In this document: positions 27,288 to 40,472 of the stretch, one piece after another
How the letters are laid out: every line of letters begins with the position of its first letter
How positions within the stretch are numbered: position 1 is the first letter of the stretch
From: Bacteroidia bacterium
GTDB lineage: Bacteria; Bacteroidota; Bacteroidia; Bacteroidales; VadinHA17
Reading direction: 5' to 3'
Assembly: GCA_026391475.1 (NCBI GenBank)
Contig: JAPLED010000064.1
Location: 1 to 40,472 of the forward strand
Length of the DNA stretch: 40,472 nucleotides
Notes under the pieces: generated by a model
Told to the model about the DNA's origin: nothing
Seen by the model: only the letters and a program-made list of their open reading frames with translations
The model's database searches: none
Translations under genes and position numbers: made by a program

Positions 27288-28064
27288 ATGGCCAGATTCA
27301 AACTTACAATAGAATACGATGGAACGCGCTATATCGGTTGGCAGATGCAGAAGGGCGGAAAAACAATTCAGGGAGAGATACTCGATGCCTGCAGGGAGGT
27401 ATTTAAAGGTGAAGAGATTGATGTTTTTGGTGCGGGACGTACTGATGGTGGCGTTCATGCATCGGGTCAGGTTGCGCATCTCGGTGTTGAAACAGATCTG
27501 GCACCGTTGAAGATAAAATACGGGATCAACGACCGTCTTCCACCGGATATCTGTGTAATAAATGTTGAAGAGGCACATCCGAAGTTTCATGCCCGGCACG
27601 ATGCAAATGCCCGCAGTTATATTTACCAGATAAGCAGAAGACGTACTGCCTTCGGGAAAAAGTATGTATGGTGGATAAAAGACCAGCTTGATATTGATCT
27701 GATGAACGAAGCTGCAAGAAATTTTCCCGGACTGAAAGACTACAGGTACTTCACTGACGAGACAGCGGAACAATCATCCACGAAGGTAGAGATACTTCAT
27801 GCAAAGGTGAATGATTTTGGTGACATGCTTGTCTTTCATGTTGTAGGTTCACATTTCCTGTGGAAGCAGATAAGACGTATGACGGGAGTCCTGGTTGAGG
27901 TAGGACGTGGCAAACTGTCACCCGCTGATGTTGCTTCATTTTTCAGACTCAAGTCAGATATTCCGGCAAAACTTACAGCTCCGCCAAGCGGGTTATTTCT
28001 CGAAAAAGTATATTATAAAAAGGAAGAGATCAGCTACCAGACAAAGCCTATCATAAATTTCTAA
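27288..28064 (+). CDS. truA: tRNA pseudouridine(38-40) synthase TruA
   Basis: Housekeeping RNA-modification enzyme that converts uridines 38, 39 and 40 of the tRNA anticodon arm to pseudouridine. The 258 residues are the normal length. The N-terminal RFKLTIEYDGTRYIGWQMQ and the catalytic-Asp motif GAGRTDGGVHASGQV (residues about 47-61) are diagnostic, and GSHFLWKQIRRMTGVLVEVGRGK near the C-terminus is also conserved. It is a single-gene unit on the plus strand between two minus-strand blocks. Its stop codon (28062-28064) is inside a heptad array that spans the whole convergent gap to the radical SAM gene. Confidence 0.97.
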   Translation: MARFKLTIEYDGTRYIGWQMQKGGKTIQGEILDACREVFKGEEIDVFGAGRTDGGVHASGQVAHLGVETDLAPLKIKYGINDRLPPDICVINVEEAHPKFHARHDANARSYIYQISRRRTAFGKKYVWWIKDQLDIDLMNEAARNFPGLKDYRYFTDETAEQSSTKVEILHAKVNDFGDMLVFHVVGSHFLWKQIRRMTGVLVEVGRGKLSPADVASFFRLKSDIPAKLTAPPSGLFLEKVYYKKEEISYQTKPIINF

Positions 28065-28118
28065 TTACGAATTACGAATTTCTAATTCCTGTAGCCTGTA
28101 GCCTGTAGCCTTATTTTA
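28056..28118. repeat. Heptad array (AATTACG then GTAGCCT), nine units between convergent stops
   Basis: Nine phase-locked 7-bp units: AATTTCT, two AATTACG, AATTTCT, AATTCCT, three GTAGCCT and TATTTTA. The array covers the truA stop codon at one end and the radical SAM stop codon at the other, so it forms the entire convergent gap. GTAGCCT is the reverse complement frame of the GGCTACA word at 14890 and 21607. Confidence 0.8.
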
Positions 28119-29060
28119 ATCGCAGGTACATTCGATCCGGCTTATTATATCCTGGCTCAGGTTCATTGCTATTAACCGATTGGTTCTCTGATCAATACAT
28201 TTATTGCAGCTGGAAAACAGGCCTAAATCCCATACATCGGCAAATACACGTCCTGCATTTAGTTTAATACCATATTCCAAAACTGTTTCCAGGGAGTGGA
28301 TATCCGGTGGCGCAAAGTGGCCTTTTCCCAATAACAGATCCATTGCCCCGTTGCCTGCCCTAACAGGAATAACCGTACAACATTCAACACCAGCACTAAA
28401 GGCAAAATCAATTGACCTTTCCGCCCAATATATACCTTCTGATTCAGTGAGAAAAGGAGGACGGAGCAGAATAAATGCCCTTGACGGGATTCTGTGTTGT
28501 GTAAGGTAGCTGACCGAATTCCTGAAATCCTCCAGGGTCATTTGCTTATTGAGTTTTCGGAGTATCTCAGTATGCACGGTTTCAAGTCCCAATACCACTT
28601 GTAATTCAGGCTTAAGCATATCCCTGAAAAGCAGACATTTTTCATTGATCAGTCTGGGATGACTTTCAACGATAACAGTTTCGAAATTACTTACCAGTGA
28701 TGCAATTTTTTTATAATCCTCTTCAGGAATAGCCCTTCCATCAAAGAAACTTCCACTATTATAGAGTTTCAGATGTTTAACTTCAGGCAGGTGATTCAAA
28801 GCCCATTTAATCTGGTTTGGGATAGCACCAGCAGGGACAGATTCATCGGTCGTGTTTTTCCACAGATCACACATCAGACAACGAAAAGGGCATTCCCGAT
28901 TCGTCAGAAAAATGATCGCAATATCTTCAATTTCTCCAGAAATGGAGCGTTCTTTTTCAACCAGCCATGCATAGGGTTTTTGCGGATCAACAGAATTTTT
29001 CCTTCCCCGGTTGGACACTATCCACCGGTCATTAATAACGAGTTCAGGATTTTCACTCAT
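28116..29060 (-). CDS. Radical SAM protein, last gene of the candidate biosynthetic operon
   Basis: Predicted [4Fe-4S]/S-adenosylmethionine enzyme, 314 residues. The cluster motif is RECPFRCLMCDLW (Cys57, Cys61, Cys64; CX3CX2C). Further segments, LKLYNSGSFFDG, VIVESHPRLI, LQVVLGLETVHTEIL and AFILLRPPFLTE, resemble the group of radical SAM proteins that includes the archaeosine enzyme RaSEA, by memory only. Four more Cys near the C-terminus (285, 288, 311, 313) could hold a second metal site. An in-frame ATG exists at 29141, but the ATG at 29060 overlaps the upstream stop in an ATGAGTGA junction, typical of translational coupling, so I chose it. The reaction is unknown; it may modify the product of the neighbouring ligase. 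Confidence 0.78.
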   Translation of the reverse strand: MSENPELVINDRWIVSNRGRKNSVDPQKPYAWLVEKERSISGEIEDIAIIFLTNRECPFRCLMCDLWKNTTDESVPAGAIPNQIKWALNHLPEVKHLKLYNSGSFFDGRAIPEEDYKKIASLVSNFETVIVESHPRLINEKCLLFRDMLKPELQVVLGLETVHTEILRKLNKQMTLEDFRNSVSYLTQHRIPSRAFILLRPPFLTESEGIYWAERSIDFAFSAGVECCTVIPVRAGNGAMDLLLGKGHFAPPDIHSLETVLEYGIKLNAGRVFADVWDLGLFSSCNKCIDQRTNRLIAMNLSQDIISRIECTCD

Positions 29061-30381
29061 AATTTGAAAGAAACTCTTTCCGGTAAGCAATTTCTCGCTC
29101 AGGAAAATGCCTTTTAAAGTCCTTGGAAGAAGTCGCGCCATGCTGAAAGCGTCTTTTCGGGAAAACCGGCATTTCCATTCCCGTAATAGCCTTTATACCA
29201 TGAGAAACTATCTGTCCCTTAAGATCATATAACTTTTGATGATCCCAATTGGTCATATCAATATATGGAATACCTTCAGAAATTTCGATCACATTGGGTA
29301 AAGTATAAGGACTGAATCCTTCAAATCCCAGCAAATCTGAAGGAGTAAAGGTCCGCATGTAACCCCTGCTTAATCCTCCTGAATAGGTTAATGAATGTTT
29401 GATTGACTCTACTCCCCAGCCTTCATGATAAAGCATGAGGTTATTAAGGACACTGCGTATAGTCAGTTCAGGGTTTTCTTCAATCGGATAATCTTTTAAA
29501 TTTTCATCACCTCCGTCTCCGTCAATTATGTATTTCCAATCGGGATAACGCGACCGGATTCCCTGCAGAAGGGACAAATTCATTGTTGCGGATTGTATAT
29601 CAAGAGGTTTATAGTCTTCGACAACTTTCACAGCCTTCTTCCAATCCAATGCTGAATAATCCACTTCAATGGGTTCCAGAAATATTTCCAGATTCAGTGC
29701 TTCCAGAAATTTCCTCGCCTGAATTAAATCAGCCCCATCGCCGTCAATCGATAGTGTAAAAGCTTTCAGCCTTGATGGGCTTTCACCAAGTTCTTTCAGT
29801 GCATGGTAAGTAAGTAAGAAAACAGAACCACTATCAATTCCGGCAGAAAAAGTAACTCCGATAGGGCCTGCTTTCGCATGGAACTGCAGCCATTTTTTTA
29901 TTTCCTTGTACAATCCCGCAATATAATTCTCACCTATTTGCGCCGGATTTTCATGGGTAAATTTGTTGCGTTCAGGAGTGAAAAACCGACTATAAACAGG
30001 ATTTGGATCAGGACAACCCAACAGTTCAATTTTTGTAATATAGTGGGCCGGAGCCATCCTTGTATAGGAGGGATGGAATTGGTTATCAAGGCCTTCCTTT
30101 TTAAGATAATCAAAAATGACATCAATACGTTCAGCAATTATAAGGTTAGGACCAGCCGGACGTTTCGCAATAAAATAACGGATCGGACGGCCAATTGATC
30201 GTGCCATCCGGATGGTCTTACCATCAACAGAAACAAGAGAAAATTGTCCGTCAATCTTGCGAACAGCTTCAACATCCCCTGATCTGACAATATTAACTGC
30301 TTCTTCGTGCGTCATATTATAAATGACATTTTTCTCTGGATTGGTGAGATCTATTACATTCCCTGCATATTGATTATTCAT
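29053..30381 (-). CDS. Asparagine-synthetase-like amide ligase lacking the glutaminase Cys
   Basis: AsnB-fold ATP-dependent ligase, 442 residues. The C-terminal synthetase domain has the PP-loop TFSAGIDSGSV (residues 179-185, in place of SGGxDS) and the second acidic motif IDGDGGDENL (287-293, equivalent to SGEGADE). The N-terminal domain keeps a remnant of the Ntn glutamine amidotransferase fold (GQFSLVSVDGKTIRMARS) but starts MNNQYAG, with no Cys2, so it cannot hydrolyse glutamine. This state is also found in beta-lactam synthetases and lasso peptide cyclases, which form amide bonds by adenylation. No lasso partner proteins (RRE or transglutaminase-like protease) are present. It lies 29 bases after the FG-GAP gene and overlaps the radical SAM start by 8 bases. 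Confidence 0.8.
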   Translation of the reverse strand: MNNQYAGNVIDLTNPEKNVIYNMTHEEAVNIVRSGDVEAVRKIDGQFSLVSVDGKTIRMARSIGRPIRYFIAKRPAGPNLIIAERIDVIFDYLKKEGLDNQFHPSYTRMAPAHYITKIELLGCPDPNPVYSRFFTPERNKFTHENPAQIGENYIAGLYKEIKKWLQFHAKAGPIGVTFSAGIDSGSVFLLTYHALKELGESPSRLKAFTLSIDGDGADLIQARKFLEALNLEIFLEPIEVDYSALDWKKAVKVVEDYKPLDIQSATMNLSLLQGIRSRYPDWKYIIDGDGGDENLKDYPIEENPELTIRSVLNNLMLYHEGWGVESIKHSLTYSGGLSRGYMRTFTPSDLLGFEGFSPYTLPNVIEISEGIPYIDMTNWDHQKLYDLKGQIVSHGIKAITGMEMPVFPKRRFQHGATSSKDFKRHFPEREIAYRKEFLSNYE

Positions 30382-30410
30382 ATTCTTGGTTTTTATACTG
30401 TTATCAACTA

Positions 30411-32075
30411 TTATTTTGTTACAATTCCTTTGCCCTGTAAAATGGTGAGATAACGATCGCAGGTAATGTTCTTATAAATCTCCTTTTTCCCGTCTGACCA
30501 GGCGATCTCAAGCAGGTCAATCTGCTTTTGCTGGCCCAGTCCGATGTGAAGACGGGGATCATTATTTGAAAGATAGCTTGTTGCCCATTGATTGACAAGA
30601 ACCTGCTTCTTTCCACCTGCTGTTACAGTTACTTTTGCACCAATTGCTGAAGCCGGCCCGTTTTTCCCTTTCAGTGTCAATCCCAGCCAATGATTGTTGT
30701 TTCCTCCATCATTTCTGAGCAGTACAGCTGTTGCCTGCTTGTCAACATGAGAGATAATAATATCGAGGTCTCCGTCGTTGTCAAAATCCCAGACAGCTAA
30801 ACCCCGACCGGAACGTTTGGTTGAGAAATAGGCACCATGCTCTTTTCCGACATTTTTAAAATGTCCTTTCCCGTCATTCTCCAGCAATAATGGATATTGC
30901 AGAATAAGTTCTTCTGCAGTTCCGTTTGCGGCAACTATATCTAGGTCACCGTCATTGTCATAATCAAAAAGTTGTGCACCCCAGCTGCCTTTACCGGCCA
31001 TAGCTCCCGCAACACCACTTACTTCTGTTATGTCCACAAAAACACCATTATCAACATTGTGGTAAAGGGCTCCGTAATCAAGGTCCGAAACGAGGATATC
31101 AATCAATCCATCACCATCAATATCACCAATTGACCCATGCATTGAACCTGTCCCTTCCCCCTGACTGTTTGCTGCAATGCCGCTTGATATGGCGACTTCG
31201 TGATATACCCTGTCATCGTTTCTGAAAAGGAAGTTTAACTGATGGTCATTGGCCTGAAAGATATCAAGATCACCATCATCATCATAATCAAATACGGTTA
31301 ATCCCATACATTTTGAATCAGGAAAATATAGGTTATTTTTTTTCGTTACATCAACAAATCTCCCGTCTGGTTGCTGCTCGTACAGCATCGATGCCTGACC
31401 ATTATATTCAGTTGGACTTGGCATCATACCAGGTGTTGCAGGCGAGACATAAGCCGGGTCAAAGGCCAGAAAGTTGCCAACCATTGCATCAAGTCTTCCA
31501 TCCAGATTATAATCCCAGAATGCAACCCCTATACTCCATTTTGTGAAGCCGTTTAACTTATCCGGCCCACTTAAACCTAATGAAGCTGTAATGTCACTGA
31601 ATGTACCGTTGCCGTTGTTATGGTAGAAAACATTTGGACCATAATTCAATAGATAAAGATCCTGATAGCCATCGTTGTCAAGATCAATAGCACCGGCAGC
31701 CATGCTCCAGTGACGGTCATCCACTCCGGCTATTTCAGAAACCCCGGTAAATGTTCCATTTCCGTTATTTTTATAGAGCTCGTTATGTGAATTCTTAAAC
31801 ACTTTTCCTTCAGGATCAGATATGCCTTCAAGATAGGTTCCATTCATCAGGTAAAGGTCCATTAATTGGTCATTGTTGTAATCAAACACAGTAATCCCCG
31901 ACCCGCTGCTTTCCAGGATATTCTTATAGGAATAGTCACCAAAAGTATATTTGAAATTAATTCCGGACTGTCTGGTTATGTCTGTAAACATTACGCCCTT
32001 CTTTTGCGCTGACGATACAACCGTGATACAAATCAGAAAAAGGCAATAAAAAAAACCGATAAACTTCTCTCTCAT
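30411..32075 (-). CDS. Exported FG-GAP/VCBS seven-bladed propeller protein with UnbV/ASPIC domain
   Basis: Secreted or periplasmic protein of 554 residues with a signal peptide (FIGFFYCLFLICITVVSSA). Seven Asp-rich calcium-type FG-GAP motifs are visible, among them DYNNDQLMDLYL, DLDNDGYQDLYL, DYDDDGDLDIFQ, DIDGDGLIDILV and DFDNDGDLDIII, suggesting a complete seven-bladed integrin-like propeller. The C-terminus carries an ASPIC/UnbV domain with QWATSYLSNNDPRLHIGLGQ and LLEIAWSDGKKEIY. UnbV proteins are named from enediyne antibiotic clusters. The start ATG shares its A with the upstream TAA (TAATG), so it is coupled to the preceding TPR/FG-GAP gene. A ligand- or product-binding surface role is likely; no enzymatic motif was seen. 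Confidence 0.85.
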   Translation of the reverse strand: MREKFIGFFYCLFLICITVVSSAQKKGVMFTDITRQSGINFKYTFGDYSYKNILESSGSGITVFDYNNDQLMDLYLMNGTYLEGISDPEGKVFKNSHNELYKNNGNGTFTGVSEIAGVDDRHWSMAAGAIDLDNDGYQDLYLLNYGPNVFYHNNGNGTFSDITASLGLSGPDKLNGFTKWSIGVAFWDYNLDGRLDAMVGNFLAFDPAYVSPATPGMMPSPTEYNGQASMLYEQQPDGRFVDVTKKNNLYFPDSKCMGLTVFDYDDDGDLDIFQANDHQLNFLFRNDDRVYHEVAISSGIAANSQGEGTGSMHGSIGDIDGDGLIDILVSDLDYGALYHNVDNGVFVDITEVSGVAGAMAGKGSWGAQLFDYDNDGDLDIVAANGTAEELILQYPLLLENDGKGHFKNVGKEHGAYFSTKRSGRGLAVWDFDNDGDLDIIISHVDKQATAVLLRNDGGNNNHWLGLTLKGKNGPASAIGAKVTVTAGGKKQVLVNQWATSYLSNNDPRLHIGLGQQKQIDLLEIAWSDGKKEIYKNITCDRYLTILQGKGIVTK

Positions 32076-35000
32076 TATTGGTCTCTTTTTTTAATTGCAT
32101 TATGATAATCCTCTGATGTTACAATTCTTGTGTTATATTCCCGAAGATATTTTTGAAGTTCAGGATCTTTCGGATAAGAATCCTTCTCAGCAGGAGGATA
32201 ATTTGTCATGCCATGAAAAGGAAGTGGTAATACAGTATTGCCAAGTGCAGTGTTTATATCCCCATCCTTTACCCAGCCCACACTATGGATAAGAAAATCT
32301 CTTTTCCATCCCTTTTTTAATTCCGGTAATCCTTTGGCATCAAATTCAATAGATGTTTCATCACCAGCATTGGAAATAATATATTTGTTATCCGACTCAG
32401 TAAGGAGAGGCAATACATTACCATAGCGTGTATAGTTACCTGACAAATCCCGCCATCTATTATTTTTATCAACATCTGAATAATCAAACCAATGAGGTCC
32501 ATAGCGGCCACCTTTTCTAAAGCTACGGGAAAATCCCCGGTAATGAAGGTCAGCTGAAACGGGTTTTATAACGGTTGAAATGATCGGAGCGTTTGAAAGA
32601 CAATCAGAAAAGAAGATATAATCCCAGTAAATCTCCATATTTGTTCTTATCCTGATCCGATGATCTGTAGAAAGCATTTTACCGGAGAGATCGGCAATTA
32701 CTGTTTTATTCTTTCCCATCGGAAAGCCCAGGTTATCAATTACTGTCTCCCATTCACCTTTTTTATTAATTACCTGGATGATGGGTGGAATGACTTTAAT
32801 ATCGTGGGATTGTGAAATGGCTACATTAATACTGGCATCCGTCGGAAATATCCAGCCATTCAGGAAAAGGAATAAATTCCCGGTTTGATCCACTTCACCC
32901 GGATCAAGAATCATGTCCTGCATCTCTGTAACTCCTTGATATTTATCAGGTTTGAAATCGGACAGATACCTATCGTCTTTTTCAGTAATAAAAGAAAGAA
33001 CATCGTTTCCCTGCGAATCCTTTGCTGAAACGGGGATATGCTTTTCCTTAACCTGGAAAATCCGATAACCAGGGAAAGGTGGTGGAGAAAACTGTTCAGG
33101 AACGAAAACGTCAACTGAATCGGGATGATCAACTGCGACCAACTGTACTTTGTCAAAATATATAGTCTCCCAAAGTTCTGATGTCACCTGAATCGAATAC
33201 ATTCCTTTCTTGGGCTTTAATAATTCACCCGGTATTTTTATATAATCATCCGATGCATCAGGGAAAGCATATGCAGTGTTACCTCCCATAATTCCCAGGG
33301 GCATACCGAGCGCACTTCTCCAGATGATATCTTTCGCAAATACATATTCGTCACCATTCCAAGTATAGAGAAAAGGACAAGAACCTTTCAGGGTCTGTGC
33401 CTCAACAAGTGACTGATCGGTCCCCGGAAAAAAAATGTTCTGAGGTACACCATTTGTCCAGGTAATTCTTATAACATCAGCTTTTGAACGATTTCCTATA
33501 CCAAAAAGGACATTGGGATCAGTTACTATCATAGTCTGGTAAAGATCACCTGCGCGCATTTCCACTTTTGCCCCAATCCCAAAATGATTATTCTTAGCGC
33601 TTCCAGCTCTTAAGCCCACAAGTTTCATCTTGATAAAATGGTTAATATTACCGCCATCATTTCGCAACAGGAAAACTCCACCATTCAAACCGGCAATCAC
33701 CACATCGAGATCACCGTCCTCATTATAATCAAAAACAGCTATTTGTTTTCCGGATTTCGGTTCTTCAGGTAACAATTTAGAAACATCGGTAAAATTCCCT
33801 TTTCCGTCATTATGAAAAAGAAACAGTCCCCGTCCGCCCTTTTCTTCAGATTCTCCTGCTATAAGAAGATCCAGAAATCCGTCATTGTCAAAATCAAAAA
33901 AAGAAGCATCATAAGCTTTAACATGCTGAATTGCAGAGAACATTTCGTTTGTATTTTTTACCCGTTCGAAACTGCCATTGTCCAGATTCCGGAATAATTC
34001 ATGGTTACCTCCATTAACCGAAGTAATGAACAGGTCTAAAAATCCATCATTATTGTAATCTCCAACCGCTACTGCGCTGGAGCCTCCGTTACTTTTCAAA
34101 CCACTATTTTCGGTAATATCTTTAAAAACACCCTGTCTTTGATTTGAATATAAAATATTGCTGGCATTCTTATTCACAACAAAAAGGTCAATGTCGCCAT
34201 CGTCATCAAAATCGCCAAAGGCTGCATCGCGACTATTAACATCTCCACTTGATAAACCCATTTTTTCGGTTTGCTCCTGAAATGTGCCATCAGAATTATT
34301 CCGAAACAGCAGATTCGAATTTGACCTTGCTTCAAATAAATCAAGATCTCCGTCATGATCCAGGTCGAAGAACAAAGCCTTATTTCCCCCGGTTTTGCTG
34401 CCGATTTTCGCTTTGGCTGTAACATCTTCAAAAGTTCCTTTTCCTGTATTTCTGTATAATATATCACCATCTTCCTTCACGATATAAAGGTCAATAAACC
34501 CGTCGTTGTCATAATCAGCAAATGCAGTTGAGGATTCCTTCCCCGAATGTCTGAGACCTGCTTTGGTTGAAACATCACTGAACCGTCCCATTTCATTATT
34601 GAAAAGATAGTGTTTATAGGATGAACTTGCCGGATCATAGCTGCCCACATAAAGATCTATGTCGCCGTCACCATCATAATCAGCTGCGGCCACGTGTGTG
34701 GAATTTCTGAATTCAGTATTCTCACCGTCAACAAAGGCCGGAACAATATTCAGGCCTGCAGATGAAGTTACATCGGTGAATTTAATCACATCCAGCAGAG
34801 ATCCATTTTCATTGATTTGGGATGAAGTTTTTTGGTCAAATGTAATCAGCGGAAAACCGATCAGGGACCCCCCCGGACCTTTCAACTCCATAATACCTGC
34901 CTGATATGGAGAGGTAACCTTAAGATAATTATGGAAAATAGTAAATTGTATAATCGCATTTCCCTTATCCTGTTTTTTCAGGGATGAAAGTGTTTTATCA

Positions 35001-35641
35001 TAATAATTAATGGCTTCCTTTGGAAATTCGGGAAATTGTTTATGGATTATTTCCATTTGTTCTATTGCCTTATCAGTGTCTCCTTTACGGATATAAATCT
35101 CGATCAGGTTAAGTTGGGGGACGATATTCCCCTGAGCTTTCTCAACAAGCTTAAGCAGACAATTCTCGCGTTGCTTTTGAGATTCCTCATCTGTCCCTAT
35201 CGAATACAATTCAGAAAGATCATACAGTATTTTAATATGGTCAGGAGCAAATGTAAGTGCCTCTTTAAGTTCCGAGATCGAACGATCACGTTCATCATTC
35301 ATCTGGTAAACTGTAGCCAATATCAACCTGATATCAGGATCTTTGGGATCAATTTTAATCGCTTTTAAAAGCTGCTTTTCAGCTTCCGGATACTTGCCCA
35401 TTCTTAAATATGCCAATCCCAGATTTGCATACCCCAGTTTTTCTTTTGGTGCCAGATCGATAAACTTTAAGAATTCCTTTTCGGCCTCGTCAAGTTTAAA
35501 CTCTTCCAGATAGGCAAGTCCCAGGGTTTTAATGGTCATCAGATCCAGCGATTTTTGCCTGTTATTTTCTGCAGTATTTTTACAGCTGAACAGGATGAAG
35601 AAACAGAGAACAATCAACAATAGTAAATTTGTCTTTTTCAT
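32075..35641 (-). CDS. Large TPR + FG-GAP propeller + UnbV lipoprotein
   Basis: Envelope lipoprotein of 1188 residues from the ATG at 35641. An in-frame ATG 16 codons upstream would precede the signal and overlap the previous gene. The signal MKKTNLLLLIVLCFFILFSC ends in a lipobox Cys. About residues 40-200 form TPR units (KLGYANLGLAYLRMGKYPEAEK and similar). Residues about 290-650 hold seven FG-GAP motifs (DYDGDGDIDLYV, DYDNDGFIDLYI, DLDHDGDLDLFE, DFDDDGDIDLFV and others). An UnbV-type segment (VLFGIGNRSKADVIRITW) follows, then a C-terminal domain of about 400 residues starting SCPFLYTWNGDEYVFAKD, found with such proteins in other phyla. It is coupled to the next FG-GAP gene by a TAATG junction. 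Function unknown; the build suggests an outer-surface binding platform. Confidence 0.82.
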   Translation of the reverse strand: MKKTNLLLLIVLCFFILFSCKNTAENNRQKSLDLMTIKTLGLAYLEEFKLDEAEKEFLKFIDLAPKEKLGYANLGLAYLRMGKYPEAEKQLLKAIKIDPKDPDIRLILATVYQMNDERDRSISELKEALTFAPDHIKILYDLSELYSIGTDEESQKQRENCLLKLVEKAQGNIVPQLNLIEIYIRKGDTDKAIEQMEIIHKQFPEFPKEAINYYDKTLSSLKKQDKGNAIIQFTIFHNYLKVTSPYQAGIMELKGPGGSLIGFPLITFDQKTSSQINENGSLLDVIKFTDVTSSAGLNIVPAFVDGENTEFRNSTHVAAADYDGDGDIDLYVGSYDPASSSYKHYLFNNEMGRFSDVSTKAGLRHSGKESSTAFADYDNDGFIDLYIVKEDGDILYRNTGKGTFEDVTAKAKIGSKTGGNKALFFDLDHDGDLDLFEARSNSNLLFRNNSDGTFQEQTEKMGLSSGDVNSRDAAFGDFDDDGDIDLFVVNKNASNILYSNQRQGVFKDITENSGLKSNGGSSAVAVGDYNNDGFLDLFITSVNGGNHELFRNLDNGSFERVKNTNEMFSAIQHVKAYDASFFDFDNDGFLDLLIAGESEEKGGRGLFLFHNDGKGNFTDVSKLLPEEPKSGKQIAVFDYNEDGDLDVVIAGLNGGVFLLRNDGGNINHFIKMKLVGLRAGSAKNNHFGIGAKVEMRAGDLYQTMIVTDPNVLFGIGNRSKADVIRITWTNGVPQNIFFPGTDQSLVEAQTLKGSCPFLYTWNGDEYVFAKDIIWRSALGMPLGIMGGNTAYAFPDASDDYIKIPGELLKPKKGMYSIQVTSELWETIYFDKVQLVAVDHPDSVDVFVPEQFSPPPFPGYRIFQVKEKHIPVSAKDSQGNDVLSFITEKDDRYLSDFKPDKYQGVTEMQDMILDPGEVDQTGNLFLFLNGWIFPTDASINVAISQSHDIKVIPPIIQVINKKGEWETVIDNLGFPMGKNKTVIADLSGKMLSTDHRIRIRTNMEIYWDYIFFSDCLSNAPIISTVIKPVSADLHYRGFSRSFRKGGRYGPHWFDYSDVDKNNRWRDLSGNYTRYGNVLPLLTESDNKYIISNAGDETSIEFDAKGLPELKKGWKRDFLIHSVGWVKDGDINTALGNTVLPLPFHGMTNYPPAEKDSYPKDPELQKYLREYNTRIVTSEDYHNAIKKRDQ

Positions 35642-35678
35642 ACCACCAAAATTAAGAAATAAGAATTTAAATTCGGAC

Positions 35679-36803
35679 TTATCTTTCAACTAGTACCGGA
35701 ATACCATTTTTTATTTCCATCATTCCGGGAACACCTATACGATTTCCTTTATTATCAAATTGTATCATTCCCGTAACACCTTCATATTTAATATTTGCCA
35801 ATGTTTTTTGTATTTTATCACGATCAAGACCGGCATTTCTAATAGCTTCAATAATTAAATTCATACCATCAAAGGCATATGCTGCAACCGCGTCTGGCAT
35901 ATTGCCAAATGTTCTTTGAAACTCTTGTTGGAAGGCTAAACCCTTAGATCCCAACCACTTTCCTGAAGAAACCAATACAACACTTTCATAACTTTTCAAT
36001 TCCTGATCTGATAATTCTTTTTCACCCAACACAGATAATGTGCCAAAAACAGTCTGGTTCATTTTTCTTTTTCGCATTTGCTGAATTAATTTCAATGAAG
36101 CCGAAGGTTGTCCAAATAGAATAATACAATTGACTTCTGCTTTATAAATCTGATCAAGCAAAACATTAAAATCCTGACTGGAATTCTCATAAAAAAACTG
36201 CAATGGGTCCGCTTTGCCAGCTATTTTCGTTTCTTTCAAAAAGCTGTCTAAGGCCAATTTTGAATCATAACCATTATCAGCAACTGCCGCTATTTTAGTA
36301 ATTTTTCTCTTATTATATATTTCTTCAATAAATGCAGCAGCCTGCTGAAGATCGTTTGGCACACAACTAAAATACCAGGGGACAAAAGCCTGAGACAGTG
36401 TTGGATCACTTGCCCATGCAGATAAGAAAACAATACGGGCTTTGGTAGTAACCTGTTCAACAAGGTGAGCATTTCTCCCATCGTGAGAACCCATGATGGC
36501 CCAGACCTCTTCTTCAAAAATCAGGTTGACTGCTTCTTTTGAACCGGTTCCCCAGGGTCCTTCCATTGAATGCACTACCAATTGGAAAGGCCGGCCATTA
36601 AAACCTCCCTTTTCGTTTGCTTTCCGAACGGCCATTTCAGCGCCATGTTTAGCTGCCACGGATTTATTATCAGGGATTAAAAGTCCAATTTTTACAGTCT
36701 TATCCGGCCCTTCCGGATTTTTCGAGGCCTGCACATTTGGGACAAAAAGAGCCAGCATAGTGAATACTAGGTAAGCCCGAAATAATAATTTCAATATTCT
36801 CAT
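35679..36803 (-). CDS. Orphan periplasmic binding protein, branched-chain amino acid (LivK) type, copy 2
   Basis: Exported substrate-binding protein of the Peripla_BP_6 family, 374 residues with a signal peptide (LLFRAYLVFTMLALFVPNVQA). The two lobes show VKIGLLIPDNKSVAAKHGAEMAV, GGFNGRPFQLVVHS, VWAIMGSHDGRNAHLVEQV and, in the second lobe, KITKIAAVADNGYDSKLAL and AYAFDGMNLIIEAI. It is paralogous to the binding protein at 37725-39035: both have a WG near residue 80 and the YDGMN/FDGMN helix. No permease or ATPase gene is present, so import through a standard ABC system is not supported here; it may be a sensor or product-binding protein. It starts 20 bases after the DAHP synthase. Confidence 0.85.
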   Translation of the reverse strand: MRILKLLFRAYLVFTMLALFVPNVQASKNPEGPDKTVKIGLLIPDNKSVAAKHGAEMAVRKANEKGGFNGRPFQLVVHSMEGPWGTGSKEAVNLIFEEEVWAIMGSHDGRNAHLVEQVTTKARIVFLSAWASDPTLSQAFVPWYFSCVPNDLQQAAAFIEEIYNKRKITKIAAVADNGYDSKLALDSFLKETKIAGKADPLQFFYENSSQDFNVLLDQIYKAEVNCIILFGQPSASLKLIQQMRKRKMNQTVFGTLSVLGEKELSDQELKSYESVVLVSSGKWLGSKGLAFQQEFQRTFGNMPDAVAAYAFDGMNLIIEAIRNAGLDRDKIQKTLANIKYEGVTGMIQFDNKGNRIGVPGMMEIKNGIPVLVER

Positions 36804-36823
36804 TTAATGATCTCATTGAACCT

Positions 36824-37738
36824 TCAACTCACGGAAGGTTTCGGTAATGAAATTTCCCTACCCAAGGCCTGGGCTATTTTCTTCAAATCAGTCATCAATT
36901 GGGCAAATTCATTCGGGCTGAGCGATTGATAACCATCACATATTGCTTCCTCAGGTTTATAATGGACTTCTATAATTAAACCATCTGCTCCAACTGCTAC
37001 CGCAGCTTTTGCCATTGAAGGCACCATCCACCTGAGACCTGTCCCGTGACTGGGATCAACTATTACAGGAAGATGACTGAGCCGTTTTAACATAGGAACG
37101 GCACTCAGATCGAGTGTATTTCTGGTGGAAGTTTCAAAAGTACGTATACCACGTTCGCAGAGTATTACCTGTTCATTGCCCTGATTAAGTATATATTCGG
37201 CCGCCAATAAGTACTCTTCAATGGTTGCCATCATACCCCGCTTTAGCAAAACAGGCTTCCGGCACATCCCTGCTTCCTTTAAAAGAGGGTAGTTTTGCAT
37301 ATTCCTTGAACCAATCTGTATCATATCGGCATACGAGGCTACCAACCCGACCTGCCGGGTATCCATCACTTCTGTGACCACCGGCAAACCTGTTTCCTCT
37401 CTTATAGAACTGAGCAATTTTAATCCTTCTTCACCCAAACCCTGAAAGTTGTATGGTGAAGAGCGTGGTTTGAAAGCACCGCCTCTTAATATCCTGGCAC
37501 CACCTGTCTTTACTGCCCTGGCTGTTTCAAATAGTTGTTCCTGGCTCTCCACGGCGCAGGGTCCTGCAATAACAATAATTTCAGAATCGCCTACCTGAAC
37601 TCCGCCAATATTCACGATTGTATCATTCGACTGTGTCTTACGACTCACCCTGGGCGGAATGGAAAATCCAACATTTTCCGGATTATAGTATGGATTTGTC
37701 TCCATTATGTCTTTCCTTATAAGATTAATATCCTGCAT
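36824..37738 (-). CDS. aroF: 3-deoxy-7-phosphoheptulonate (DAHP) synthase without regulatory domain
   Basis: Condenses phosphoenolpyruvate and erythrose 4-phosphate to DAHP, the first shikimate-pathway metabolite. The type I-beta catalytic barrel is intact: [62 protein letters not shown] and [10 protein letters not shown]. The 304-residue protein has only a short lead-in before the barrel, without the ferredoxin-like or ACT domain that gives feedback control in many relatives, so it may be unregulated. I chose the ATG at 37738, which overlaps the end of the upstream binding-protein gene by 14 bases, over the longer frame from 37801. No other shikimate gene is near; its place between two binding proteins suggests a dedicated biosynthetic role. 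Confidence 0.9.
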
Positions 37739-39035
37739 TACTGGTATGCCTCTCCATGTCCTTAGGAGGGGGAGCCAGAGAAAATTTGAACTTTCCGTCA
37801 CGGACTTCTGCCATATAGATGTCTCCTATATCATTCCAGCTACCATCAAATACAATTTTGCCGGTAATGCCTGGATAATTCTGAAAAGTTTTCAGATCAG
37901 TTAGCACATCACGGATCAATACGCGGTTAAGACCCGCTTTGTTAATTGCCCCGATAATAATGTTCATGCCATCATAAGCATGTGCCGCAAAAACATCCGG
38001 TTCCTGGCTGAATCTCTTTAAATAATTACTTTGAAATGCCTTTAACTTTGGAATATCTGCGTTGGGATTATATTGACAGGTAGTCACAATGCCTTCAGCC
38101 AGCTTACCGGCAATTTTGAGAAACTCGGGATTAACCATCCTGTCTGAGCCATAGATTGGTTGTTTTAGTCCCATTGCACGTATTTGTTGTAAGATCAGCG
38201 CAGATTCTTTGGCATTTCCCCAAATTAGTATAGCATCTGGTGAAGTTACTAATATTCTCTCCAGCTGTGTTTTAAAATCTGTTTCCCCGTCATTAAAACG
38301 CTCTTCGATGACCATAGGATGACCTACACGTGTTGCAGTCTCAGAGAATATCTTGATCCCCACTCTTCCATACCGGTTATTGGCCCTTATCACTGCTACG
38401 CGGGAAAGACCATCCTTCTTGTAAATCTGGTTAACCAATGAATAACAGCTCTGCCTGTCATCACTGATGACGCGGATTACCCAGGGGATGGCTGTTTCCG
38501 TAAAAGTAGGATCAGGATCACCTGTACAAACCATAGGTATCTCCAGTTTTAAAGTAGCTCTTATTGCAACGTGTGAAACTATGTCGTCGATGGAACCCAA
38601 CCAGGCCCAGACCTTTTCATCATCCATTTTCACCACTTCATTTGCAGCAGCACCCCATAAGCCAACATCATTGTGTATCATTAATTTAAAGGGAATGCCA
38701 CGATATCCTCCTTTTTTATTGGCTTCTTCTATTGCCAGAGTAGCTCCCTGTAACATTTGTTTACCAAGGGACACAATCACTGAGCCTTCCAATGGTCCCA
38801 AAAATCCTATCCTTACCTCTTTAAGATCCGTGGGAGGTGGAATCTCCCGACCTGCCCCGTAAAATTTTATGGGTTCAAGAAAATGATATTTATAGGCTTT
38901 CTGAAACCTTTGATAAGGAAAGATTTCATCCGAAGCCTTACCATAGTTTTTATTTTTATCCTGTCCGATTAAATTTGAAGTCGGAAACAATAAAGTCAGG
39001 ACAAAAATTGCTATTAATAAATATTTTGATTTCAT
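37725..39035 (-). CDS. Orphan periplasmic binding protein, LivK type, copy 1
   Basis: Exported Peripla_BP_6 substrate-binding protein, 436 residues from the ATG at 39035 ([18 protein letters not shown], a clear signal peptide). The longer frame from 39083 overlaps the Rid gene and was rejected. Key segments are [70 protein letters not shown] and [19 protein letters not shown] polar stretch of about 60 residues lies between the signal and the domain. It starts 10 bases after the Rid gene and overlaps the DAHP synthase start by 14 bases, indicating tight coupling. No ABC permease or ATPase accompanies it. The ligand is unknown; amino acids or aromatic acids are usual for the family. Confidence 0.85.
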
Positions 39036-39045
39036 GAGCTTGTAA

Positions 39046-39621
39046 TTAGTTTGATTTGCAGATTGCATATACTTCGATTTCAACTAAAAGGGTTTCCCAG
39101 CAAAGTCGTGCCTGAATTCCGGTACTGGCAGGTAAAGGATCAAGATTCATCCACTGATAAAAGGAGGTGCGGATTTTATTGAATTCGGCATAATCTCTTT
39201 CAATATCCCTGAGATAATTTGTTGTTCTGACAACATCATGCCATGACATTCCCTCAGCTGCCAGAAGATTGGTGATATTGCGGTAAGTTCTCCATTGCTG
39301 TGCCTTAAAATCGCCGAGGTGCTCGGCTTTACCTTCCTCATTTACACTGGCTGTACCTGAAATGAGCAAAACCTTATGACCGCCGAAATCAAGTCGCAGC
39401 GCCCTTGAAAAAGATGATGGTTTCTGATAGTTGTATGCTTCATTTATTACCTGGGGAGCATGTGTTACATGTTTCTCAATCGGAGGTCGCTCATTATGAA
39501 GGGATGGATAAACTGATTCAATAAGTTTATTATCATCAGATAAAATTCCGAGTTTTTTCATCTCAACACGCTCTCCATCTGTGAGTTTTGAAAGATCTAT
39601 CAATAATTCTTTATTGCCCAT
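39046..39621 (-). CDS. Rid/YjgF-superfamily protein, chorismatase-like
   Basis: Cytoplasmic protein of 191 residues with a C-terminal Rid (YjgF/YER057c) domain from about residue 65. Visible segments are LRLDFGGHKVLLISGTASVN, HLGDFKAQQWRTYRNITNLL, DVVRTTNYLRDIERDYAEFN and ARLCWETLLVEIEVYAI. The GTAS, GD...Q and LLVEIE pattern resembles the C-terminal half of chorismatases (FkbO/Hyg5/XanB2 type), which cleave chorismate, more than short imine deaminases. The N-terminal about 60 residues are shorter than in true chorismatases, and the usual Arg before the last motif is replaced (CWE for CRP). Together with the DAHP synthase two genes on, a role in handling a shikimate-derived compound is a fair guess, not shown. 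Start ATG is 39621. Confidence 0.75.
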   Translation of the reverse strand: MGNKELLIDLSKLTDGERVEMKKLGILSDDNKLIESVYPSLHNERPPIEKHVTHAPQVINEAYNYQKPSSFSRALRLDFGGHKVLLISGTASVNEEGKAEHLGDFKAQQWRTYRNITNLLAAEGMSWHDVVRTTNYLRDIERDYAEFNKIRTSFYQWMNLDPLPASTGIQARLCWETLLVEIEVYAICKSN

Positions 39622-39646
39622 TATTTCTATTATTTCTATTATTTAA
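39620..39646. repeat. Short nonamer repeat between propeller and Rid genes
   Basis: ATTATTTCT twice in tandem and a third partial copy, spanning the Rid start codon, the 17-base gap and the stop codon of the propeller gene. Small, but it follows the same rule as the larger arrays. Confidence 0.4.
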
Positions 39647-40472
39647 GTAACTCTCCACGACTGACTCCTTTTTCTGTAGCAACCCACAGGACATCAGCAT
39701 CAGCATCAACACCAATTATAAAATTATGTGCAATGGATGGGGATAATGGCATTTCTCTGGTAGATTTATTCATAGTACTATCATCGTTACGACCAAAATT
39801 TTTAACGATGGCCATTCCATCGCTGTTATTGTCATTTTTCTTATAGGTTACCCAGCTTTTTCCATCAGTACAGCTTAACCCTTTATCGCTGCAAATAAAA
39901 ACTACCGGACCTTCAGCCCTGAGAAAGTTGATAAAATTACTTGCCAAACCACTGTCATGGTCGAAGTACCCTTTCCAATGGGTTCCATCGTAACGGCTTA
40001 TGCCAAAGTATGTAGATACCCATAAAATACCATCTGCATAAGAAGTGGCTGTAGTTATATCATGAACTACACCATCATCGGGGAGAAGGTCAATTTCCAT
40101 TTCACCATCGGGATCAGTGTAATCCTTGAATTGCTTTGTTTTTTTAGTGTATTCGATTACTCCGCCCCCCCAGGCTGCAATAAATATCTTTCCATCTCCT
40201 GCCGATACACCATATGTCCAGGGCTCATGCATGGGAGCATTCTTTTCTGTGAATATCTCCCATTCTTTAGTGTAAGTATCATAATGGCCGGCGCCGCCTC
40301 CGGTAGCAGTCCATACATCTTTGCCATCACAGATAACGCAGTAAACCAGATCATTAGGAAGGCCGCTATTAAACTGCGTAAAAGTTTCGAATTTGCCTGC
40401 GGACCACCGGCTTAACCCTCCCAACGTTCCAATCCATACATCCCCGGTTAATTCACTGACATCTATTGAAAC
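39639..40472 (-). CDS. Regulator-type beta-propeller protein (5' part cut off by window edge)
   Basis: C-terminal 277 residues of a protein whose start lies beyond the right edge. The frame is open to base 40472 (VSIDVSELTGDVWIGTLGG), so no start is visible. It is built of Reg_prop-type propeller repeats as found in the sensor part of hybrid two-component systems: DVWIGTLGGLSRWSAGKF, DVWTATGGGAGHYD, ILWVSTYFGISRYDGTHW and VLWVATEKGVSRGE, each blade with the xWxxTxxGxxR(W/Y) pattern. No kinase domain follows the propeller; it stops 15 bases before the Rid start, so this copy is probably a stand-alone surface or periplasmic propeller. It is the first visible gene of the nine-gene operon. Confidence 0.75.
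   Translation of the reverse strand, partial: VSIDVSELTGDVWIGTLGGLSRWSAGKFETFTQFNSGLPNDLVYCVICDGKDVWTATGGGAGHYDTYTKEWEIFTEKNAPMHEPWTYGVSAGDGKIFIAAWGGGVIEYTKKTKQFKDYTDPDGEMEIDLLPDDGVVHDITTATSYADGILWVSTYFGISRYDGTHWKGYFDHDSGLASNFINFLRAEGPVVFICSDKGLSCTDGKSWVTYKKNDNNSDGMAIVKNFGRNDDSTMNKSTREMPLSPSIAHNFIIGVDADADVLWVATEKGVSRGELLK

Follow-up and report, generated by a model that had tools for sequence, protein, structure and literature searches.

What is the function of an operon in which a shikimate entry enzyme, a Rid-fold protein, a ligase, a radical S-adenosylmethionine (SAM) enzyme, two substrate-binding proteins and three propeller proteins are encoded side by side? This question is raised by contig JAPLED010000064.1 of a Bacteroidia bacterium of the VadinHA17 lineage (assembly GCA_026391475.1), which was analyzed over its whole length of 40472 bases (G000:C33) and is called the window in the following. 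Its region 28116-40472 is filled by nine reading frames, all on the minus strand, just as an earlier note on this DNA had described; that note had taken them as a nine-gene operon for a small molecule built on a shikimate or chorismate unit. The set is real, but it is the downstream part of a longer operon, the heart of which, a complex resembling hydrazine synthase, lies outside the window and had been missed. The system is real, conserved and largely undescribed. As for its function, our tentative reading, possible rather than probable, is that the twelve genes of the entire operon make a cytoplasmic chorismate-derived nitrogen compound, which would be bound or oxidized by the hydrazine synthase-like heme-propeller complex outside the inner membrane.

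A conserved twelve-gene operon

Read in one direction, the operon comprises FGGAP2, the alpha-like and the beta-gamma-like gene of the complex, PROP, RID, SBP_B, the DAHP synthase gene, SBP_A, TPRFG, FGGAP1, the ligase gene and the radical SAM gene, and the contig ends inside PROP, the ninth gene of the window. All twelve genes are present in the same order in 13 of the 26 relative loci that were fetched (L037, L039-L042, L044-L051; RID of L047 was found by tblastn, the upstream three genes were checked by profile, and FGGAP2 is cut in some loci). The other 13 loci are cut by contig ends, short of genes or arranged otherwise. The gene set is therefore conserved together in relatives, and its DAHP synthase exists beside another copy in the genome rather than as a sole housekeeping copy, as described below; these were the two points on which the earlier note had let its proposal stand or fall. 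In the genome of the window, FGGAP2 and the alpha-like and beta-gamma-like genes are located at the cut end of another contig, C11, which presumably joins C33. The genes also occur together across genomes. Among 146 relatives, the ligase was counted in 36 (38 matched, two of them at E-values of about 1e-4 were dropped), the beta-gamma-like protein in 34 and both in 30 (Fisher p 6e-21, kinship ignored), and TPRFG is present in 40, together with the ligase in 34 (Fisher p 1e-24, kinship ignored). Four genomes have the beta-gamma-like protein without a found ligase (G012, G054, G056, G064) and six the ligase without a found beta-gamma-like protein, one of which, G048, has a beta-gamma piece at a contig end (L059).

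The domains named in the earlier note were recovered with Pfam and NCBIfam for eight of the nine window frames. The ninth, PROP (39639-40472), the 5' end of which lies off the contig, has no match to these models itself, and its assignment as a Reg_prop-type propeller protein comes from a full-length relative with Reg_prop repeats (PF07494; L039, 13469-14728). The tight spacing that had been claimed, with gaps of 29 bases or less or overlaps throughout, holds in part. The ATGAGTGA overlap at 29053, in which the radical SAM start at 29060 lies within the end of the ligase gene (8 bases), and the TAATG junction at 32075 were both found again. However, comparison with relatives favors later starts for three genes. 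The DAHP synthase starts at the ATG at 37705, so that the genes supposed to overlap by 14 bases at 37725 are separated by 19 bases instead. The start of SBP_B moves to 39035, with a 10-base gap after RID, and the corrected start of TPRFG at 35641 leaves a gap of 37 bases, above the 29 claimed. Behind the operon, truA (27288-28064) is encoded convergently in the window and in several relatives.

An obligate pair of ligase and radical SAM enzyme

No part of the operon is conserved more widely than the pair of the ligase (29053-30381, 442 residues) and the radical SAM enzyme (28116-29060, 314 residues); in other phyla, the neighborhoods fetched around this pair contain neither Rid nor DAHP synthase. 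A scan of species genomes for the ligase yielded at least 418 confirmed stretches among at least 587 candidates, of which the best 80 were kept as loci; these are labelled as Bacteroidota, Marinimicrobia, Calditrichota, Gemmatimonadetes, Planctomycetes, Verrucomicrobia, Deltaproteobacteria, Roseithermus and others. The radical SAM gene adjoins the ligase gene in 70 of these 80 loci and is further off or elsewhere in the genome for nine of the other ten, so that 79 of 80 have both, and the pairing is obligate. The sole exception is G366 (L116; same contig as G001:C117), the ligase of which is shortened to 392 residues. In L057/L116 (G001, G366) the C-terminus of the ligase is shortened, the DAHP synthase is missing and a search of the genome gave no radical SAM partner, so that the pair may decay together.

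The ligase is an asparagine synthetase-like, ATP-dependent enzyme, which matches the synthase domain PF00733 with 38.8 bits (cut-off 21) and is 59-92% identical in 31 relatives. Against solved structures, sequence and profile searches yielded nothing, and the match comes from fold comparison only, in which an AlphaFold model (predicted local distance difference test score 84.9) matches asparagine and beta-lactam synthetases with E-values of about 1e-12. With beta-lactam, carbapenam and asparagine synthetases the ligase shares the two-domain fold (template modeling score about 0.54-0.64), whereas identity is 9-17% and the N-terminal cysteine of the glutaminase is missing; with TIGR01536 it scores 34 bits against 267. 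No N-terminal catalytic cysteine was seen in the 32 rows checked, one of which (L056) has a Cys within the first 12 residues, where its frame reaches further upstream than the start shared by the other rows. A PP-loop-like motif, S-A-G-x-D-S, is also common to the ligase and these synthetases. Asparagine synthetase-like enzymes of other pathways are described as forming amides, lactams and nitriles (PMC13060819, PMC12715798).

The radical SAM enzyme is RaSEA/QueL-like. It scores 29.0 bits with PF04055, just below the cut-off of 29.5, and contains the CxxxCxxC motif (C57, C61 and C64) as well as C285, C288, C311 and C313, all seven of which are invariant in 11 rows. The RaSEA family TIGR01210 is matched with an E-value of 1e-31 and 110.4 bits, below the cut-off of 212.15. 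In the RaSEA reaction, the nitrogen of the lysine stays behind. For ArcS of T. kodakarensis, lysine transfer is reported only in complex with RaSEA (PMC11298593). This archaeosine pair is the nearest mechanistic analogy, as it likewise combines a transferase- or ligase-type enzyme with a TIGR01210-type radical SAM enzyme, whereas the operon ligase belongs to the asparagine synthetase family and is not an ArcS. In our literature search, no work was found that joins ligase, radical SAM, FG-GAP and UnbV.

The surroundings of the pair vary. In the six Bacteroidales loci L098, L103, L104, L105, L110 and L112 it is followed by genes for a creatininase (6 of 6), a peptidase S58 (5) and a URO-D-like protein (3), and SusC-like genes are divergent in five of them. 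In a metagenome-assembled genome (MAG) labelled Candidatus Scalindua (L129), where misbinning is possible, the pair is located beside a TPR/FG-GAP gene and without a close beta-gamma protein.

A predicted chorismate-derived product

For the Bacteroidota version of the operon a chorismate-based product is plausible, and a sequence of six steps can be proposed. Where it is present, the DAHP synthase would increase the flux into chorismate, which would be converted into a hydroxybenzoate-type acid by RID or, in certain species, by a two-domain chorismatase. The glutaminase-free ligase would use ATP to activate a carboxylate and couple it with an amine, and the RaSEA-like radical SAM enzyme would then cut off the carbon skeleton of the amine and leave the nitrogen, by analogy to RaSEA acting after ArcS in archaeosine synthesis. 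The product would exit the cytoplasm, be held by SBP_A, SBP_B and the propellers and serve the MauG-like diheme domain of the complex, either as its redox substrate or as its cofactor, and the operon would be switched by the neighboring two-component system.

The DAHP synthase of the operon (36824-37705) is of type I-beta and reaches 403 bits with TIGR01361, above the cut-off of 267.75. It matches PRK08673 only from profile position 71 and therefore lacks the N-terminal part of the family. It is an extra copy, since the genome has a second, divergent DAHP synthase frame of 371 residues in a row of aromatic amino acid genes, which scores 141 bits and thus over cut-off with PF00793, and below cut-off with the NCBIfam models. 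The genome also has a KDO8P synthase (G000:C131; L063, 446-1101) that is split over two frames, either by a sequencing error or as a broken gene.

RID (39046-39621) is a one-domain Rid-fold protein of 191 residues (PF01042, 62.1 bits). It aligns to the C-terminal catalytic domain of the two-domain chorismatases of the FkbO/Hyg5 type (hhalign probability 98.2, 24% identity), the Cys and Glu of which are kept: Cys174 and Glu181 of RID, at least 95% conserved in 41 sequences, align with Cys327 and Glu334 of Hyg5. Glu-334 of Hyg5 is described as essential (PMC7170507). RID differs from FkbO and Hyg5 by its one domain instead of two and by its score with TIGR04444, 25.2 against 325 bits. The catalytic Arg105 of the RidA deaminases is not kept either, as Ser166 of RID aligns with the Arg of 2dyy. 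Eight of 34 operons lack RID, with six changes on the tree, and a two-domain chorismatase is present in each of the eight genomes concerned, compared to 8 of 26 with RID (Fisher p 0.0007). Such FkbO/Hyg5-like chorismatases, all under the family cut-off, were seen in 46 of the 146 relatives (e.g., L144-L153) and are common in the genus and its kin. As a general part of the operon the two-domain chorismatase was rejected: in the genomes with both a chorismatase and a beta-gamma gene, the two are on different contigs, except for G068, where the chorismatase is inside the operon, and G056, where it is on the same contig.

Several points weigh against a chorismate-derived product. The DAHP synthase is optional, as among the best 80 loci 27 show both binding proteins, of which 13 have it and 14 do not; it is missing, e.g., in Maribacter and Lutimonas and present in two Lutibacter MAGs (L118, L122). 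RID is optional in the operon as well, and when relatedness is considered, its relation to the chorismatase is reduced to six independent pairs, four to five pointing the same way and none the other (p about 0.06). The general Rid model TIGR00004 scores RID higher (45.2 bits, under the cut-off of 106.25) than the chorismatase model does, and the chorismatase Glu is also common to RidA, so that a chorismatase activity of RID is a guess. The chorismatase resemblance seen in the earlier note is supported by the alignment and the Cys/Glu pair. In the same way, RaSEA-type chemistry is a guess because the TIGR01210 score is at half the cut-off. Genomes in which a flavoenzyme accompanies the pair have neither Rid nor DAHP synthase in the fetched neighborhoods, the operon has no gene for a small-molecule exporter, and flavin and MauG-like partners fit the maturation of a protein cofactor equally well. 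Substrate and product are only predicted. Of the shikimate- or chorismate-based molecule originally proposed, the conserved operon and the plausibility in Bacteroidota remain, whereas the optional DAHP synthase and a core pair that in other phyla has neither it nor Rid in the fetched neighborhoods speak against it.

Alternative partners and a possible protein-derived cofactor

In the main alternative, which we regard as rather unlikely, ligase and radical SAM enzyme form a maturation system with an oxidase, either the MauG-like beta-gamma protein or a QhpG-like flavoenzyme, and the cofactor that they build is derived from an exported propeller protein, for which TPRFG (32075-35641) is the likeliest candidate. 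This protein has a lipoprotein-like start, TPR and FG-GAP/UnbV domains (Pfam) and a conserved C-terminal domain, which compared to solved folds gave nothing under an E-value of 0.001 and a weak, partial resemblance to CBM32. TPRFG is the steadiest partner of the pair, with a relative in 20 of 20 ligase genomes tested from many phyla and in 34 of the 36 ligase-bearing relatives, and FGGAP1 (30411-32075; PF13517, PF07593), an FG-GAP/UnbV propeller protein with a signal-peptide-like start, is present in 44 of the best 80 ligase loci. However, 67 of 199 planctomycete genomes contain the TPRFG family and seven the ligase, so that TPRFG occurs without ligase in 60 of the 67; the seven are among the nine best scores.

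The second argument for such a maturation is that the putative oxidase differs between genomes. A gene for a flavin enzyme is located behind the pair in L128, L131, L135, L137, L139 (again as L186), L141, L143, L190 and L191, but in front of it in L133, and its best NCBIfam match is QhpG. Among 33 ligase genomes, a close beta-gamma protein (at least 45% identity) is present in 17, the flavoenzyme in 14 and both in none. Two of the 14 flavoenzyme genomes (G157, G165) have distant beta-gamma relatives (28-37%), in G162 neither was seen, and G164 has a distant beta-gamma protein, the flavoenzyme search not having been made there; kinship may explain part of this split. QhpG is described as dihydroxylating a protein tryptophan in complex with a radical SAM enzyme, and the diheme enzyme MauG is likewise said to have a protein tryptophan as its target (PMC7876137). 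The operon shares with the QhpD/QhpG maturation of quinohemoprotein amine dehydrogenase and with MauG the radical SAM enzyme plus flavoenzyme, or the diheme enzyme, but it includes a ligase as well, no target protein is known for it, and the families are far under cut-off (77.6 against 240 for the flavoenzyme with QhpG, 20.4 against 443.85 for the beta-gamma protein with the MauG family). Moreover, when 40 TPRFG proteins of ligase genomes were compared to 23 of ligase-free genomes, leaving out L231, the split copy of G154, and L232 and L233, the two copies from ligase-free Bacteroidota, five columns clearly differed, none with a gained Cys or Trp, and one of them has Tyr where most ligase-free proteins have Trp. 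This residue signature is not in favor of TPRFG as modified substrate. A nearby precursor of a ribosomally synthesized and post-translationally modified peptide was set aside because of the tight operon spacing, and no search for it was made.

Binding proteins and a possible sensing function

SBP_A (35679-36803) and SBP_B (37725-39035) are periplasmic-type substrate-binding proteins (Peripla_BP_6, Pfam), and no permease gene is found beside them in the operon. On C11, genes for a histidine kinase and a response regulator lie upstream of the three genes located there. Together with the Reg_prop propeller, these features would fit a unit that senses or takes up aromatic compounds in the periplasm and in which the biosynthetic-looking genes supply or degrade the signal. 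We consider this improbable, since it leaves unexplained the obligate pair of ligase and radical SAM enzyme in phyla without such parts nearby. The frame of the histidine kinase (L154, 5381-6622) stops after 51 of the 111 positions of the ATPase domain, which is either a frame break or a short variant, and divergent from the two-component genes (L154, 7712-16000; G000:C11) a SusC-like protein, a SusD-like protein (by eye) and an FG-GAP frame of 1094 residues are encoded.

The hydrazine synthase-like complex

The fused beta-gamma-like protein matches the beta and gamma subunits of hydrazine synthase with E-values of 3e-54 and 3e-19, respectively, and the alpha-like protein matches the alpha subunit with 4e-19 and also the Pfam family HZS_alpha. 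This clear homology of three subunits, with beta and gamma fused as described for Scalindua (PMC10732223), could be taken to mean that Bacteroidota possess, in this complex, a genuine nitrogen-nitrogen bond former or some other enzyme of the anammox type. Its key residues make this very unlikely. For heme I of hydrazine synthase alpha, a tyrosine ligand four residues past the CxxCH histidine is described (PMC12607021). In 12 of 12 alpha-like proteins read, no Tyr follows the CxxCH in this way, and the second alpha heme motif is absent, a single CxxCH being present. Aligned to the anammox enzyme (5c2v_C), gamma has a Trp at His144 and a gap at Cys165 (by residue count in one protein). The curated hydrazine synthase families remain under cut-off (NF052342 261.5 against 1250; NF052339 95.5 against 800), and key residues are also described as missing in the hydrazine synthase homologs of clades I-III (PMC12758564). 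Judged from its sequence, the complex thus resembles hydrazine synthase but is very probably not one.

The closest published counterparts are the hydrazine synthase-like clusters of clade III (Hagglund et al., 2025, PMC12758564). According to their published description, with which the operon was compared, they likewise have an FG-GAP gene upstream of alpha, alpha upstream of a fused beta-gamma gene, a beta-gamma protein with one heme motif more, an alpha protein that lacks the second heme, and two genes for substrate-binding proteins downstream. The operon agrees with the printed gene order and heme counts, having one heme motif in the alpha-like and three in the beta-gamma-like protein, so that five of the twelve genes fit this printed layout, to which the paper assigns no function. 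Its main text contains none of the terms DAHP, radical SAM, UnbV, ASPIC, asparagine, chorism-, RidA or histidine kinase. DAHP synthases and Rid proteins are common families, but that the locus is a chance neighborhood of housekeeping genes can practically be dismissed, since the same order is kept in 13 loci and co-occurrence over 146 genomes is strong.

Implications for the hydrazine synthase family

In a wider view, which we consider doubtful, many bacterial phyla would share an undescribed cofactor pathway that has the glutaminase-free ligase and the RaSEA-like radical SAM enzyme as its obligate core, installs nitrogen by "ligate, then cut" and feeds one of two exchangeable modules for oxidation, either the hydrazine synthase-like heme complex outside the cytoplasm or the QhpG-like flavoenzyme; hydrazine synthase itself would then have arisen from complexes that use this cofactor. 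The conserved pair of ligase and radical SAM enzyme, with 59-92% ligase identity across phyla and no function found in the literature, points strongly to a metabolite or cofactor that has yet to be described. Hydrazine synthase is the enzyme that makes anammox possible, and its relatives outside the anammox bacteria are of unassigned function. The operon gives one branch of these relatives fixed biosynthetic partners and cultured hosts (Maribacter, Lutibacter, Lutimonas), and therefore their chemistry is open to deletion and mass spectrometry.

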